Assembly: GCA_903880005.1 (NCBI GenBank)
Contig: CAIRNV010000038.1
Coordinates: 1 to 55,359, forward strand
DNA length: 55,359 bases
Reading direction: 5' to 3'
Source: an uncultured Verrucomicrobiota bacterium
GTDB lineage: Bacteria > Verrucomicrobiota > Verrucomicrobiia > Limisphaerales > UBA9464
In this document: positions 10,704-49,554 of the stretch, in pieces
Position numbering within the stretch: the stretch's first letter is position 1
Layout: each line of letters begins with the position of its first letter
Translations under genes and position numbers: made by a program
The notes under the pieces: generated by a model
Database searches by the model: none
Seen by the model: only the letters and a program-made list of their open reading frames with translations
Told to the model about the DNA's origin: nothing

Positions 10704-10874
10704 TAAGCCGGAACGATTCAGTTGGATCGGTCGTGCTTGCTCGATCTGCTCCCGCAAATCCTTCGTCGTTCGCTCGTTACGGGCCTCGAACCGGCCCGCG
10801 CCTCGCTCACTCCTCGGCTTGCAAAAGAATCCGCGGCGCAATCACTTCCCTCCCAATTGAATCGTTCCGGCTAA
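10704..10874 (+). repeat. 165-bp TIR repeat, full copy 1
   Basis: The core runs 10707-10871 and is flanked by a 3-bp direct repeat TAA (10704-10706 and 10872-10874). The terminal inverted repeats are GCCGGAACGATTCAGTTGG and its near-complement at the right end, which has one G-T wobble. An internal GGGCC/GGCCC hairpin sits near the middle. The right-hand third (AAAAGAATCCGCGGCGC) differs from the other copies. It lies 15 bp after the hisF stop and directly before the DUF486 gene. Confidence 0.9.
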
Positions 10875-30263: not shown

Positions 30264-30434
30264 TCAGCCAGAACGATTCAGTTGGGTCGGTCGTGCTTGC
30301 TCGATCTGCTTCCGCAAATCCTTCGTCCTTCGCTCGTTACGGGCCTCGTACCGGCCCGCGCCGCGCTCACTCCTCGGCTTGCGCAAGCATCTGCTTCGCA
30401 ATCCCTTCCCTCCCAACTCCATCGTTCCGGCTCA
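30264..30434 (+). repeat. 165-bp TIR repeat, full copy 2
   Basis: The core is 30267-30431, flanked by the perfect 3-bp direct repeat TCA on both sides (30264-30266 and 30432-30434). The arms are the least matched of the four copies: GCCAGAACGATTCAGTTGG on the left against GCCGGAACGATGGAGTTGG read from the right. It lies 4 bp beyond the stop of the minus-strand kinase gene. Confidence 0.9.
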
Positions 30435-31507: not shown

Positions 31508-32878
31508 ATGACGTTGACGGAGAAGTTGCTGGCGCGAGCGGCAGGCAAGGCGCGGGTTTCCGCTGGGGACAACATTTGGGTGAAGGCAGACGTCCTCATG
31601 ACGCACGACGTCTGCGGTCCCGGGACGATCGGGGTCTTCAAGCGGGAGTTCGGCAAGACGGCGCGGGTCTGGGACCGGGAGCGGGTGGTGATCATCCCCG
31701 ACCACTACATCTTCACGGCGGACTCGAAATCGAACCGCAACGTGGACATCCTCCGAGATTTCGCTCGCGAGCAAGGGTTGCCGTACTTCTACGACGTGAT
31801 CGACGAGCCAGGCGGGCAGTGGAAGTTCGACACGTCGAAGGGGCTGCTGAAGCGTCAGTATGGGTCGCAGTACGCGGGCGTCTGCCATGCGGCGTTGCCG
31901 CAGAAGGGGCACACACGACCCGGCGAGATCTTGTTCGGGACGGACTCGCACACGTGCATGGCCGGGGCGTTCAACGAGTTTGCGACGGGCATTGGCAACA
32001 CGGATGCGGGGTTCGTGATGGGAACCGGCAAGCTGCTGATCAAGGTGCCCGAGACGATGCGTTTCAGGCTTGAAGGCCGGTTGCAACCCGGCGTCATGGC
32101 CAAGGACCTCATCCTCCACATCATCGGCGAGATCGGCTTTGACGGGGCAACCTACCGCGCCATGCAATTCGACGGCCCGGGCGTGGCGTCGTTGTCGATG
32201 GACGACCGGATGACGGTGGCCAACATGGCCATCGAGGCGGGCGGCAAGAACGGCATTTTCCCGTTCGACGCACGCACGGCGGAGTACGTCGAGGCCCGGA
32301 CCCGCCTGAACGGGACGCGGTCACATTACGAGCCCGTCGAGGCGGATGCCGACCAGGCGTTCTGCTACGAGACGGTCGTGGACCTCGACAAGCTGGAGCC
32401 GACGGTTGCCTGCCATCCCGACCCTGGCCAACGGAAGCGGGCCCGCGACATGGCCGACGTCCGCCTGGACCGCGCCTACATCGGGTCCTGCACCGGGGGC
32501 AAGACGTCGGACTTCGTGGAGTTTGCGCGGGTGGTCCGCGGGCGTCGGGTGGCGATCGACACGTTTGGGGTTCCCGCCACTCCGGAGATCGTGCACGACT
32601 TGCAAACCACCCGCTGGGGTGGGGAGACCATTTGGGACATCCTCGTGGGATCGGGCGTGCAAATGACCGAGAACGCCGGTTGCGCGGCGTGCCTCGGGGG
32701 GCCGGTGGACACGTTCGGCCGCATGAATACGCCGTTGAAGTGCATCAGCGCCACCAACCGCAACTTCCCCGGGCGCATGGGGCACAAGGACTCCCAGGTG
32801 TTCCTCGCCAGCCCCGCGACCGTCGCCGCGTCCGCCTTGGCGGGCCATGTGGCCGATCCACGAGCGCTCGTGGCTTAG
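31508..32878 (+). CDS. Aconitase-family dehydratase large subunit (LeuC-like)
   Basis: This 456-residue protein carries the aconitase superfamily [4Fe-4S] site: Cys328 (YIGSCTGGKTSDF), Cys392 and Cys395 (ENAGCAACLGGP). Substrate and active-site motifs include TDSHTCMAGAFNEFATGIGN and DVCGPGTIGVF. It is closest in layout to 3-isopropylmalate or homoaconitate dehydratase large subunits, which isomerise hydroxyacids in leucine or lysine synthesis. No small subunit (LeuD) gene is in the window, so its exact substrate is uncertain. The start at 31508 matches LeuC starts (MTLTEKLLARAAG). The TAG stop (32876-32878) overlaps the left boundary of repeat copy 3. Confidence 0.88.
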   Translation: MTLTEKLLARAAGKARVSAGDNIWVKADVLMTHDVCGPGTIGVFKREFGKTARVWDRERVVIIPDHYIFTADSKSNRNVDILRDFAREQGLPYFYDVIDEPGGQWKFDTSKGLLKRQYGSQYAGVCHAALPQKGHTRPGEILFGTDSHTCMAGAFNEFATGIGNTDAGFVMGTGKLLIKVPETMRFRLEGRLQPGVMAKDLILHIIGEIGFDGATYRAMQFDGPGVASLSMDDRMTVANMAIEAGGKNGIFPFDARTAEYVEARTRLNGTRSHYEPVEADADQAFCYETVVDLDKLEPTVACHPDPGQRKRARDMADVRLDRAYIGSCTGGKTSDFVEFARVVRGRRVAIDTFGVPATPEIVHDLQTTRWGGETIWDILVGSGVQMTENAGCAACLGGPVDTFGRMNTPLKCISATNRNFPGRMGHKDSQVFLASPATVAASALAGHVADPRALVA

Positions 32879-33045
32879 CCGTAACGATTCAGTTGGATCG
32901 GTCGTGCTGGCTCGATCTGCTTGCGCAAATCCTTCGTCGTTCGCTCGTTACGGGCCTCGTACCGGCCCGCGCCTTGCTCACTCCTCGGCTTGCGCAAGCA
33001 TCTGCTTCGCAATCACTTCCCTCCCAACGGAATCGTTACGGCTTA
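32875..33045 (+). repeat. 165-bp TIR repeat, full copy 3
   Basis: The core is 32878-33042 with flanking direct repeat TTA (32875-32877 and 33043-33045). The arms are GCCGTAACGATTCAGTTGG and, read from the right, GCCGTAACGATTCCGTTGG. The T at arm position 5 is changed on both sides relative to copies 1 and 4, so pairing is kept. The LeuC-like stop codon TAG straddles the left boundary. A truncated second left end follows without a gap, sharing the TTA. Confidence 0.92.
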
Positions 33046-33095
33046 GCCGGGACGATTCGGTTGGGTCGGTCGCCCTTGCTGGATGTTTTTTTTGG
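33046..33095 (+). repeat. Truncated repeat, left end only
   Basis: GCCGGGACGATTCGGTTGG continues as GTCGGTCGCCCTTGCTGG and then diverges at a run of eight Ts. It matches the first 45 or so bases of the full element and abuts copy 3, sharing its TTA flank. It could be a nested or tandem insertion that lost its right part. Confidence 0.7.
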
Positions 33096-35444: not shown

Positions 35445-35717
35445 GACGCCGCGGTGACCCGCAGGACATCACCCGGCTGCGGAGGTGCAGCACGAGAGCT
35501 TCGTCCTTCGCTGGTCACGGGCCACGCGGCGGGACCGTGTCGGCCATGATCCTGGCCGGACGCATGCCACGACGATTCCCAAGAAATATTGAAAGGTTTT
35601 GACGGGTCGCTTCGATGTCTTAGAGAGTAGAGGCCTTCACGTGCCCGATCCGTGTTTGGAACCCGGGTGGTCGTGGAGGTGGCTCTGTCGCATTGCAGTG
35701 AACTGAAAGTTAATACC
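35445..35717. other. Intergenic region with decayed repeat and weak promoter
   Basis: GAGCTTCGTCCTTCGCTGG and the following ACGGGCCACGCGGCGGGACC (around 35497-35537) resemble the middle of the 165-bp element in decayed form. TTGACG at 35599-35604, with TAGAGA at 35621-35626 (16-bp spacing), is a weak promoter candidate for the PEP-CTERM gene. Nothing else is evident. Confidence 0.35.
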
Positions 35718-41110: not shown

Positions 41111-42034
41111 TTGGCACTCTGGCGGCGCGTGCGCGTCGTCCTTCTCCTGGCTTTCTTGCCGTCGTTCCATGGTCTTGCCACGGACCCCGTCCTTCGGGCC
41201 CGGCTTCATGAGCAAACCCGGCAGGGCGCGGTGGTGATCCCCTACTCGTCCTCGACGCGCTTCGACGCGGCGGATGCGTTGGCCGTGCTGGATGCGGTGC
41301 CCGGCAACACCAACCTCGTGCGGCTCGTGTACAGCACGGCGGTGCTGCCTGCGACGTCCTTCTCCACCACGACCGGATGGAACCGCGAGCATCTCTGGCC
41401 CAATTCCTATGGGCTTGATGACGTCGAGCCCTCGTTTTCGGACCTCCACAACCTCCGGGCCTGCGACGCCAACGTGAACAGCTCCCGGAACAACAAGTGG
41501 TATGACCTGTCCTCGGCGGCCGAGGGTGGCATCCGCGCCCCGGCCCATGCGGAGGCGCCCGAGTGCACGGCGGACTCGAACAGTTGGCAGCCTCCCGTCG
41601 CCCAACGCGGCGACATCGCCCGGGCGCTGTTTTACATGGCGATCCGATACGAGGGGGGATTTGCGGGCGAGCCGGACCTTGAGTTGGTGGAGGACGTGGC
41701 CCGGATCTCCACGTCGGGCACCTTCATGGGACGCCTGAGCACGTTGCTCAACTGGAACCGCGAGGATCCGCCGGACGACGCCGAGCGCGCCCGCGACGCC
41801 GACGTTGGGCGCATCCAAGGCAACCGAAACCCCTTTGTCGCCGACCCAGGCCTCGCCAACGCGATCTGGCTTCCCACCATCGACGTGATCCCGACCCAAG
41901 GCGGTCCCGTGTTCGTGGTGGAGCCCACGGACTTGCCGGTCGTTGTTGAATACGCGTTGGAACCCGCTGGGCCATGGACCGCCAACCGTCCTCCTGGGGC
42001 CAGCGCGTTGTTTGCGCGCGTCAGGTTGCGATGA
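41111..42034 (+). CDS. Endonuclease I (EndA/NucM family), secreted
   Basis: This 307-residue protein has a signal peptide and an endonuclease I domain (about 55-215). The Mg-dependent nuclease core is TGWNREHLWPNSYGLD and SDLHNLRACDANVNSSRNNK. YMAIRYEG and LLNWNREDPPDDAERARDAD are also characteristic, as is GNRNPFVADP. The family cuts DNA non-specifically, usually outside the cytoplasm for nutrient use. A TTG at 41111 is chosen because GGGAG sits five bases before it; a TTG at 41093 also stays in frame. A decayed repeat fragment begins right after the stop. Confidence 0.88.
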   Translation: MALWRRVRVVLLLAFLPSFHGLATDPVLRARLHEQTRQGAVVIPYSSSTRFDAADALAVLDAVPGNTNLVRLVYSTAVLPATSFSTTTGWNREHLWPNSYGLDDVEPSFSDLHNLRACDANVNSSRNNKWYDLSSAAEGGIRAPAHAEAPECTADSNSWQPPVAQRGDIARALFYMAIRYEGGFAGEPDLELVEDVARISTSGTFMGRLSTLLNWNREDPPDDAERARDADVGRIQGNRNPFVADPGLANAIWLPTIDVIPTQGGPVFVVEPTDLPVVVEYALEPAGPWTANRPPGASALFARVRLR

Positions 42035-42112
42035 GGCCCGCGCCTCGCTCACCCCTTGTCGTGCGGAAGAATTTTCTGCGCCATCCGTCCCTCACAACGG
42101 GGTCGCCCCGAC
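42035..42112 (+). repeat. Right-half fragment of the 165-bp repeat
   Basis: GGCCCGCGCCTCGCTCACC matches the middle of the full element; GAAGAATTTTCTGCGCCATC and CCCTCACAACGGGGTCGCC follow in the order expected for the right half and terminal arm, with many changes. It begins directly after the endonuclease I stop codon. Confidence 0.55.
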
Positions 42113-49062: not shown

Positions 49063-49554
49063 TCAGCCGGCCTGGGCTGGCCGCCGAGCCATCCACCGCA
49101 ACGCCCAGCCCGTGCCGAGTGCGTAAACGAGCACGCTCTGGGCATACCCGAGCGGGTCGATGGACCCTGCCTGCGGATGCGAAGGCGCAAGATACGGCGC
49201 GATGGAGCCCCAGGCCAACAGCGCCGAACCCCAGCTCAACCCACTGGCGAGCGGCCATAGCCGGGACGATTCAGTTGGGAGGGAAGTGATTGCGAAGCAG
49301 ATGCTTGCGCAAGCCGAGGAGTGAGCGAGACGCGGGCCGGTGCGAGGCCCGTAACGAGCGAACGACGAAGGATTTGCGGAAGCAGATCGAGCAAGCACGA
49401 CCGATCCAACTGAATCGTCCCGGCTTAGCCACCAACCGCGAAAACGACCGGCCGCGAGCAAGGCGGCCTGGCAAAAACCCAGGCAAAGGCCCATCACGAC
49501 ATAGGTGAACCAGGCCAACGCCATCGAAAGCACGAACCCAAGTCCCGTGGCCAC
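49063..49554 (-). CDS. Small membrane protein with in-frame 165-bp repeat
   Basis: This 163-residue protein starts at GTG 49554, 13 bp after the Gfo/Idh gene on the same strand. Residues 1-38 form a membrane helix (VLSMALAWFTYVVMGLCLGF, then CQAALLAAG). Residues about 44-99 are encoded by a full repeat copy read through without a stop (SRDDSVGSVVLARSASANPS and onward). Two further hydrophobic segments follow (GLSWGSALLAWGSIAPYL and AQSVLVYALGTGWALRWMA). Without the repeat and one flank triplet the frame is intact and leaves about 107 residues. The host family is not recognised. Either the insert is tolerated as a surface loop or the gene is inactive. Confidence 0.6.
   Translation of the reverse strand: MATGLGFVLSMALAWFTYVVMGLCLGFCQAALLAAGRFRGWWLSRDDSVGSVVLARSASANPSSFARYGPRTGPRLAHSSACASICFAITSLPTESSRLWPLASGLSWGSALLAWGSIAPYLAPSHPQAGSIDPLGYAQSVLVYALGTGWALRWMARRPAQAG
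49257..49427 (-). repeat. 165-bp TIR repeat, full copy 4 (inside a gene)
   Basis: The core is 49260-49424. The arms are a perfect 19-bp inverted repeat, GCCGGGACGATTCAGTTGG. The flanks read TAA and TAT on the minus strand, one mismatch from a TNA duplication. Orientation is opposite to copies 1-3. Core plus one triplet is 168 bp, so the reading frame of the host membrane protein is kept. Confidence 0.92.

Follow-up and report, generated by a model that had tools for sequence, protein, structure and literature searches.

The window, by which we mean the whole 55,359-nucleotide stretch of Verrucomicrobiota DNA analyzed here, contains four copies of a 165-nt repeat whose ends form inverted arms. 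Copy 1 lies at positions 10707 to 10871 (+), copy 2 at 30267 to 30431 (+), copy 3 at 32878 to 33042 (+), and copy 4 at 49260 to 49424 (−). The cores of copies 1, 2, and 4 are found at 10743 to 10834 (−), 30303 to 30394 (−), and 49297 to 49388 (+), respectively. Copy 3 is the element on which the finding was made. Its left arm, a terminal inverted repeat at 32878 to 32897 (+), carries the allele GTA at positions 4 to 6 and is identical over 18 bp to the ends of an IS1380-family insertion sequence (IS), while its right arm (33023 to 33042, −) carries the same allele and is mismatched to the left arm at position 14. The folded core of this copy, at 32914 to 33005 (−), scored 111.6 bits against covariance model R1 and has its ladder of G.A loops on the minus strand. 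CTTAG target sites lie on both sides of copy 3, at 32874 to 32878 on the left and at 33042 to 33046 on the right. The right site is a junction to a further left arm (GCCGGGACG), which, together with part of an interior, makes up a truncated copy (33046 to 33079, +) standing in tandem with copy 3 through their common CTTAG. Immediately upstream, an open reading frame (31508 to 32878, +), whose product we take from its sequence to resemble the LeuC/aconitase large subunit, ends with a TAG at 32876 to 32878, inside the CTTAG site where copy 3 begins. The insertion of copy 3 supplies or preserves the stop codon of this reading frame. Elsewhere in the window, a possible decayed core coincides with a weak direct repeat at 41988 to 42076 (−; 21.2 bits, E = 0.021), and a very weak core-like match at 35485 to 35573 (−; 18.4 bits, E = 0.088) is probably due to chance.

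The initial annotation proposed that the two arms of the repeat change together from copy to copy, and within the window this pattern was borne out. Over the first nine bases, read inward, the arms are matched in copy 1 (GCCGGAACG/GCCGGAACG; GGA/GGA at positions 4 to 6), copy 3 (GCCGTAACG/GCCGTAACG), and copy 4 (GCCGGGACG/GCCGGGACG; GGG/GGG), and are unequal in copy 2 (GCCAGAACG/GCCGGAACG; AGA/GGA). Farther inward, a further mismatch separates the two arms of copy 1 (position 15) and those of copy 3 (position 14). Three matched copies out of four are unremarkable at the genome-wide rate of 47%, for which our arithmetic gives a probability of about 0.27.

We then considered all copies in the genome from which the window comes (G000), a draft of 5.0 Mb in 492 contigs. 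An interior 17-mer with up to three mismatches had 389 matches, compared with 14 for a reversed control, giving a copy number of about 375. From 182 full-length copies, we kept 169 for arm statistics, leaving out 12 that were not 165 nt long and 1 with more than 40 differences from the consensus; 103 partial matches were also set aside. Positions 5 and 6 were equal between the arms in 79 of 169 copies (47%), where shuffling gave 54.5 (SD = 5.5, P ≤ 0.0002). All four of positions 5, 6, 12, and 14 were equal in 51 of 169 (shuffled, 24.5; SD = 4.2). Arm agreement is therefore commoner than in shuffled copies, but the association is weak, with unequal arms at positions 5 and 6 in 90 of the 169. 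Sites 5 to 6 and 160 to 161 are about 155 nt apart, and the assembly appears to have used a word length of 141 bp (see below), so that in G000 the left arm is linked less securely to the right arm than either arm is to the interior. Assembly chimeras should weaken the association between left and right arms rather than create it. Among near relatives, the covariation score of the arms in 96 sequences was 0.234, compared with 0.131 when shuffled and at most 0.061 when slid, and 26 paired arm changes were counted on the tree of 222 sequences (null mean, 6.2; maximum, 13). In G007, which was scored as belonging to the same genus as the window's genome, position 5 was equal in 12 of 12 copies, which carry three alleles.

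Only four positions were strongly variable in both arms, each with two main bases. Across 338 arms, these were position 5 (G in 263, T in 70), position 6 (A in 211, G in 117), position 12 (T in 242, G in 88), and position 14 (A in 295, C in 35). The remaining arm positions diverged to about the same degree as the interior (about 4%). Both arms carry the same alleles at the four positions, as do the two interior subfamilies described below. Such two-base alphabets (G/T, A/G, T/G, and A/C) would be consistent with a protein whose contacts in the groove are tolerant.

The repeat is a miniature transposable element (MITE), a nonautonomous transposon of about 163 to 165 nt that is noncoding and dispersed. 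One passage of PMC3733652 defines MITEs as noncoding elements of 70 to 300 bp with terminal inverted repeats of 15 to 30 bp that resemble IS ends. The element studied here is short and multicopy, is dispersed, has 18-bp ends in common with an IS in the same genome (contigs C131, C18, and C21), and is associated with a target-site duplication at CTNAG. Its left flank read C-TNA in 111 of 166 copies and its right flank TNA-G in 99 of 166. When both flanks were TNA, they were equal in 63 of 85 copies (shuffled, 29.9); over all copies, flanks were equal in 68 of 167. CTNAG fits a 5-bp direct repeat, and a 3-bp TNA repeat can be read equally well since the element begins with G and ends with C. Tandem arrays with a spacing of 168 nt were also present, and regeneration of the target at both junctions upon insertion would explain them.

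A profile search with PF01609 located a transposase on contig C131 of G000. The protein (463 aa) matched NF033539 (transpos_IS1380) at 242 bits, above the family cutoff of 180, and also matched PF13701; on this sequence evidence, the IS belongs to the IS1380 family. A reading of the target as the TNA type of IS5/IS1031 was dropped when the transposase search gave IS1380. Contig C131 extends between arm position 6 and a right arm that is complete (read inward, GCCGTAACGATTCAGTTG). Two more contigs, C18 and C21, break off within this IS; their left arms are GCCGGAACG and GCCGTAACG, respectively, and the 141 bp that follow are identical. The overlap among the three contigs is likewise exactly 141 bp, a value that resembles the word length of the assembly. 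The right end and the two left ends of the IS match the MITE arm over 18 bp, and the left ends vary at position 5 as the MITE does (GCCGG in C18, GCCGT in C21). The covariance model of the core had no match in the IS locus. Searching seven other element-bearing genomes with the IS1380 transposase protein gave no match in G004, G007, G012, G023, G027, or G029 and a match of 28% identity in G046, so the putative mobilizing enzyme is known only from the window's genome. A plasmid search for the repeat returned no match. On another G000 contig (C31, locus L272), tandem elements at positions 1 to 250 directly precede a transposase fragment matching PF01609.

Why should the two arms of a copy agree? 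Descent by interior subfamily, the alternative that the initial annotation set against its own reading, would have a few master copies with symmetrical arms give rise to lineages that later diverged. The copies in G000 fall into two interior subfamilies, A (116 copies) and B (53 copies), whose consensus sequences have 14 differences, all in the interior and none in the arms; the excess of arm agreement was also present in subfamily A on its own. Some observations are consistent with descent. Swapping arms with the nearest neighbor by interior distance recovered part of the excess (65.0, compared with 54.5 shuffled and 79 observed), the least diverged copies had the highest arm agreement (22 of 39), and matched arm types in G007 largely track interior types. 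Nevertheless, all arm alleles are present in both subfamilies, and copies with close interiors are no likelier to have the same left alleles: these were common to 0.36 of pairs with zero to two interior differences and to 0.33 to 0.38 of more distant pairs, although the interior is short and carries private mutations, so that descent is poorly measured. Symmetric arm sites correlate at r = 0.22 to 0.34, whereas the mean absolute correlation between arm and interior was 0.115 over all copies and 0.087 inside subfamily A. Arm alleles thus show almost no linkage to the interior, so that the interior subfamilies fail to explain arm agreement, and we regard descent by itself as a rather doubtful account.

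Several observations indicate that copies have recombined with one another. Among the 128 copies of the 169 with both halves assignable, 15 were A/B half-chimeras, and swapped apices occurred in both directions (21 A-B-A and 7 B-A-B). One G007 copy (L303) has arms of one type and an apex of another. In the window, the right half of the interior of copy 1 is of the subfamily B type. A search for sister copies with common rare interior variants found no pairs. Arms agreed in 4 of 15 A/B chimeras and in 55 of 113 other copies, a difference that was not significant (P = 0.17). With rising copy divergence, agreement fell from 0.56 through 0.51, 0.46, and 0.36 to 0.31, which is a trend only (rank correlation, P = 0.068).

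The initial annotation also suggested selection for a folded form. This suggestion was supported, mainly by the interior, which the annotation did not cite; for the outer arms, which an IS1380-family element has as its terminal inverted repeats, binding of a transposase to both ends is a sufficient explanation. In all seven consensus sequences, the minus strand forms one long hairpin that is more stable than the plus strand, with predicted energies of −98.5 versus −77.2 kcal/mol for subfamily A and −88.0 versus −69.3 kcal/mol for G046. As RNA, the minus-strand consensus sequences were predicted to fold at −88 to −98 kcal/mol (A, B, G004, G029, and G046) or −82 to −83 kcal/mol (G007 and G023). 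The minus strand was the more stable under both RNA and DNA energies, which therefore do not separate the two. For the near relatives, we used 96 sequences from seven genomes, leaving out the 14 longest or most divergent of 110. Interior pairs were formed in 90.5% of cells, and interior covariation was 0.213 (shuffled, 0.108; slid, at most 0.059). On the tree of 222 near-relative sequences, 19 paired interior changes were counted (null, 9.2; maximum, 17). In the G000 arms, G.U and A.C mismatches favored the minus strand (222 versus 54), with positions 6 and 20 dominating, and the same comparison in the interior relies on the minus-strand fold; we give both little weight. Counted against the fold, A/B chimeras fold less stably on average and yet persist as copies.

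A wider set of sequences gave stronger evidence. The center of the element is a 92-nt hairpin with a ladder of 2 × 2 G.A internal loops on the minus strand. Using a covariance model built from 59 of 74 prepared core sequences, we found this core in 18 of 286 genomes of the class, representing 14 of 137 genera and including the window's genome; with BLAST, the element had been reached in 8 of 58 genomes, again counting that of the window. The core also occurs in the Verrucomicrobiota assemblies UBA6176 and KLAP45. Among 34 aligned cores, 91.8% of cells were paired, 24 of 29 core pairs had changed on both sides, and covariation was 0.626 (shuffled, 0.178; slid, at most 0.129) in an alignment fitted to the structure. 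In a structure-naive alignment of one core per genome (n = 19), covariation was 0.420 versus 0.190 when shuffled, although sliding the partner by −1 still scored 0.32. Positions in the lower stem showed up to five pair types, and the ladder of 2 × 2 loops, mostly GA facing GA, was nearly invariant. The annotation had named covariation analysis as a check on its reading. We compared column pairs with a home-made, R-scape-like null in which the tree and the substitutions on each branch are preserved. In the structure-fitted alignment of the wider core set, 10 pairs covaried significantly, and all 10 belong to the structure, as for a conserved structured nucleic acid; however, the R-scape-like test found no significant pair among 222 near-relative sequences. 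The case for the fold therefore rests on the wider set, with its alignment fitted to the structure.

The arms around the core are not constant. In G282, G161, G041, G138, G198, and one G269 element, the core is flanked by inverted repeats unrelated to GCCGGAACG, and in G146, G260, G318, and G009, among others, there are no long arms within 60 nt of it. No family in Rfam 15 matched the window's repeat or the cores at eight distant-genome loci above the gathering score. We are evenly divided on whether these cores make up an undescribed structured family of the Verrucomicrobiota, that is, a portable core independently taken up by transposons with unrelated arms and essential as a folded single strand.

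A conserved fold close to genes might instead be an RNA of use to the host, for example, a stabilizer of mRNA 3′ ends or a terminator, with arms and core both kept for the fold of the message. Genes were called with a home-made finder around 109 copies, using flanks of 700 bp. Copies were within 20 nt of gene 3′ ends in 54 of 114 cases, compared with 10 of 79 for 5′ ends, and lay between convergent genes (n = 28) more often than between divergent ones (n = 10). These locations, along with the predicted stability of the minus-strand RNA consensus sequences (−82 to −98 kcal/mol), would be consistent with a host RNA. Yet copies downstream of a gene showed no orientation preference (plus strand, 55; minus strand, 59), and the G.A ladder is present on the minus strand only. 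With a one-stranded fold and both orientations equally common, it is unlikely that selection acts on a function in host mRNA. Moreover, the family is patchy (the 8 of 58 genomes reached by BLAST), as for a mobile element, and location near gene 3′ ends fits tolerated insertion sites combined with a CTNAG target that resembles a stop codon. We consider a host RNA improbable.

A further possibility offered by the annotation was that the sequence of one arm is used to correct the other. Substitutions would then become paired through gene conversion or through template switching in a hairpin, and such a process would be consistent with the same alleles occurring at four positions in both arms, with agreement above chance, and with IS left ends that differ at one arm site and are identical over the 141 bp beyond. 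The closest inverted pair is formed by the arms that face each other across CTNAG in tandem arrays. Facing arms agreed at 8 of 34 junctions, whereas the arms of the same copy agreed at 23 of 34 (Fisher's exact test, P = 0.0005; junctions between two full copies were counted from both sides). In addition, agreement did not rise with copy divergence, and fixed mismatches persist: position 7 was mismatched in 12 of 12 G046 copies, and position 15 was A on the left and G on the right in 9 of 15 G023 copies and 9 of 9 G029 copies. The G.A loops of the core were likewise retained rather than turned into Watson-Crick pairs. Correction between arms was not supported, and we think it very unlikely. Finally, the window's paired arms might reflect chance plus common ancestry with no biology of their own, given that four copies provide only three variant pairs and that the arms differ at positions 5 and 6 in 90 of the 169 copies across the genome, but the genome-wide excess (P ≤ 0.0002, and also in subfamily A alone) and the 26 paired arm changes on the tree (null maximum, 13) leave this reading with a negligible probability.

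Arm pairing is thus real but weak across the genome, and its best explanation is joint inheritance of the two ends under a single transposase. An IS1380-family transposase with the same ends would move the MITE between CTNAG sites. Each arm would be an end bound by the transposase, with two bases tolerated at each of positions 5, 6, 12, and 14, and arms would agree because the two ends of a copy came together at its birth. Agreement would then be lost through mutation and through recombination between copies, which would also unlink arms from the interior, and arm-to-arm correction would not restore it. The interior, in turn, would be a single long hairpin maintained by selection on pairing, with the minus strand, folded and single-stranded, taking part in propagation of the element itself. 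Because the copies lack an orientation preference toward host genes, that strand is slightly more likely to be single-stranded DNA than RNA. Taken as a whole, a MITE mobilized by an IS1380 element, with arms inherited together and a separately selected interior hairpin, is the explanation that we consider likely.

Bacterial MITEs are usually regarded as remnants that are defined by their ends alone. The repeat resembles RUP, NEMIS/Correia, and Nezha in its IS-like ends, target duplication, and many intergenic copies. Unlike these elements, for which we know of no class-wide covarying core, it has such a core, and the core recurs with unrelated arms. A search of the open-access literature found no description of this element or of a covarying MITE core. 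Direct repeats in the IS1380 family are 4 to 5 bp long, and one member, ISEcp1, accepts right ends that match poorly. The repeat is linked to this family (e.g., IS1247 and ISEcp1/ISEc9) by a partner transposase above the cutoff and by CTNAG, which fits the 5-bp direct repeat listed for IS1247 along with a 16/13 inverted repeat (Table 2 of PMC3281130). In contrast to IS1380 elements, the MITE has only their ends and not their coding region. It shares with Rfam structured RNAs a conserved, covarying fold with purine-rich internal loops but matches no family in that database. The inside of the element is more conserved than its ends, with the fold kept by compensatory change while whole arms are replaced. 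The general possibility that small transposons contain a folded strand with a function, be it RNA or single-stranded DNA, thereby becomes testable. With natural copies in the hundreds and four positions free to vary in each arm, the family would also provide a readout of the end preference of a transposase.

The REP and REPIN sequences of RAYT transposases, with GTAG/CGTC repeats, occur in a Verrucomicrobia genome, that of Opitutus terrae, according to a passage of PMC3733652. Like them, the repeat is a high-copy, intergenic palindrome that forms hairpins, and some distant genomes have inverted pairs of cores. It differs from REP/REPIN sequences (20 to 40 nt) in its length of 165 nt, its target duplication, and its DDE-transposase ends. 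Specifically, loci in G260, G318, G214, and G009 (L437, L452, L443, and L454, respectively) contain two inverted cores roughly 20 nt apart, a layout that resembles a REPIN doublet, and a small hairpin of the CCCTTCGGG type lies beside the core at several two-core loci. At another locus (L349 in G012, positions about 767 to 1020), an element of the family is split by another long palindrome of unrelated sequence (CAGCGCAGAG.../...CTCTGCGCTG), an arrangement of nested MITE-like insertions.
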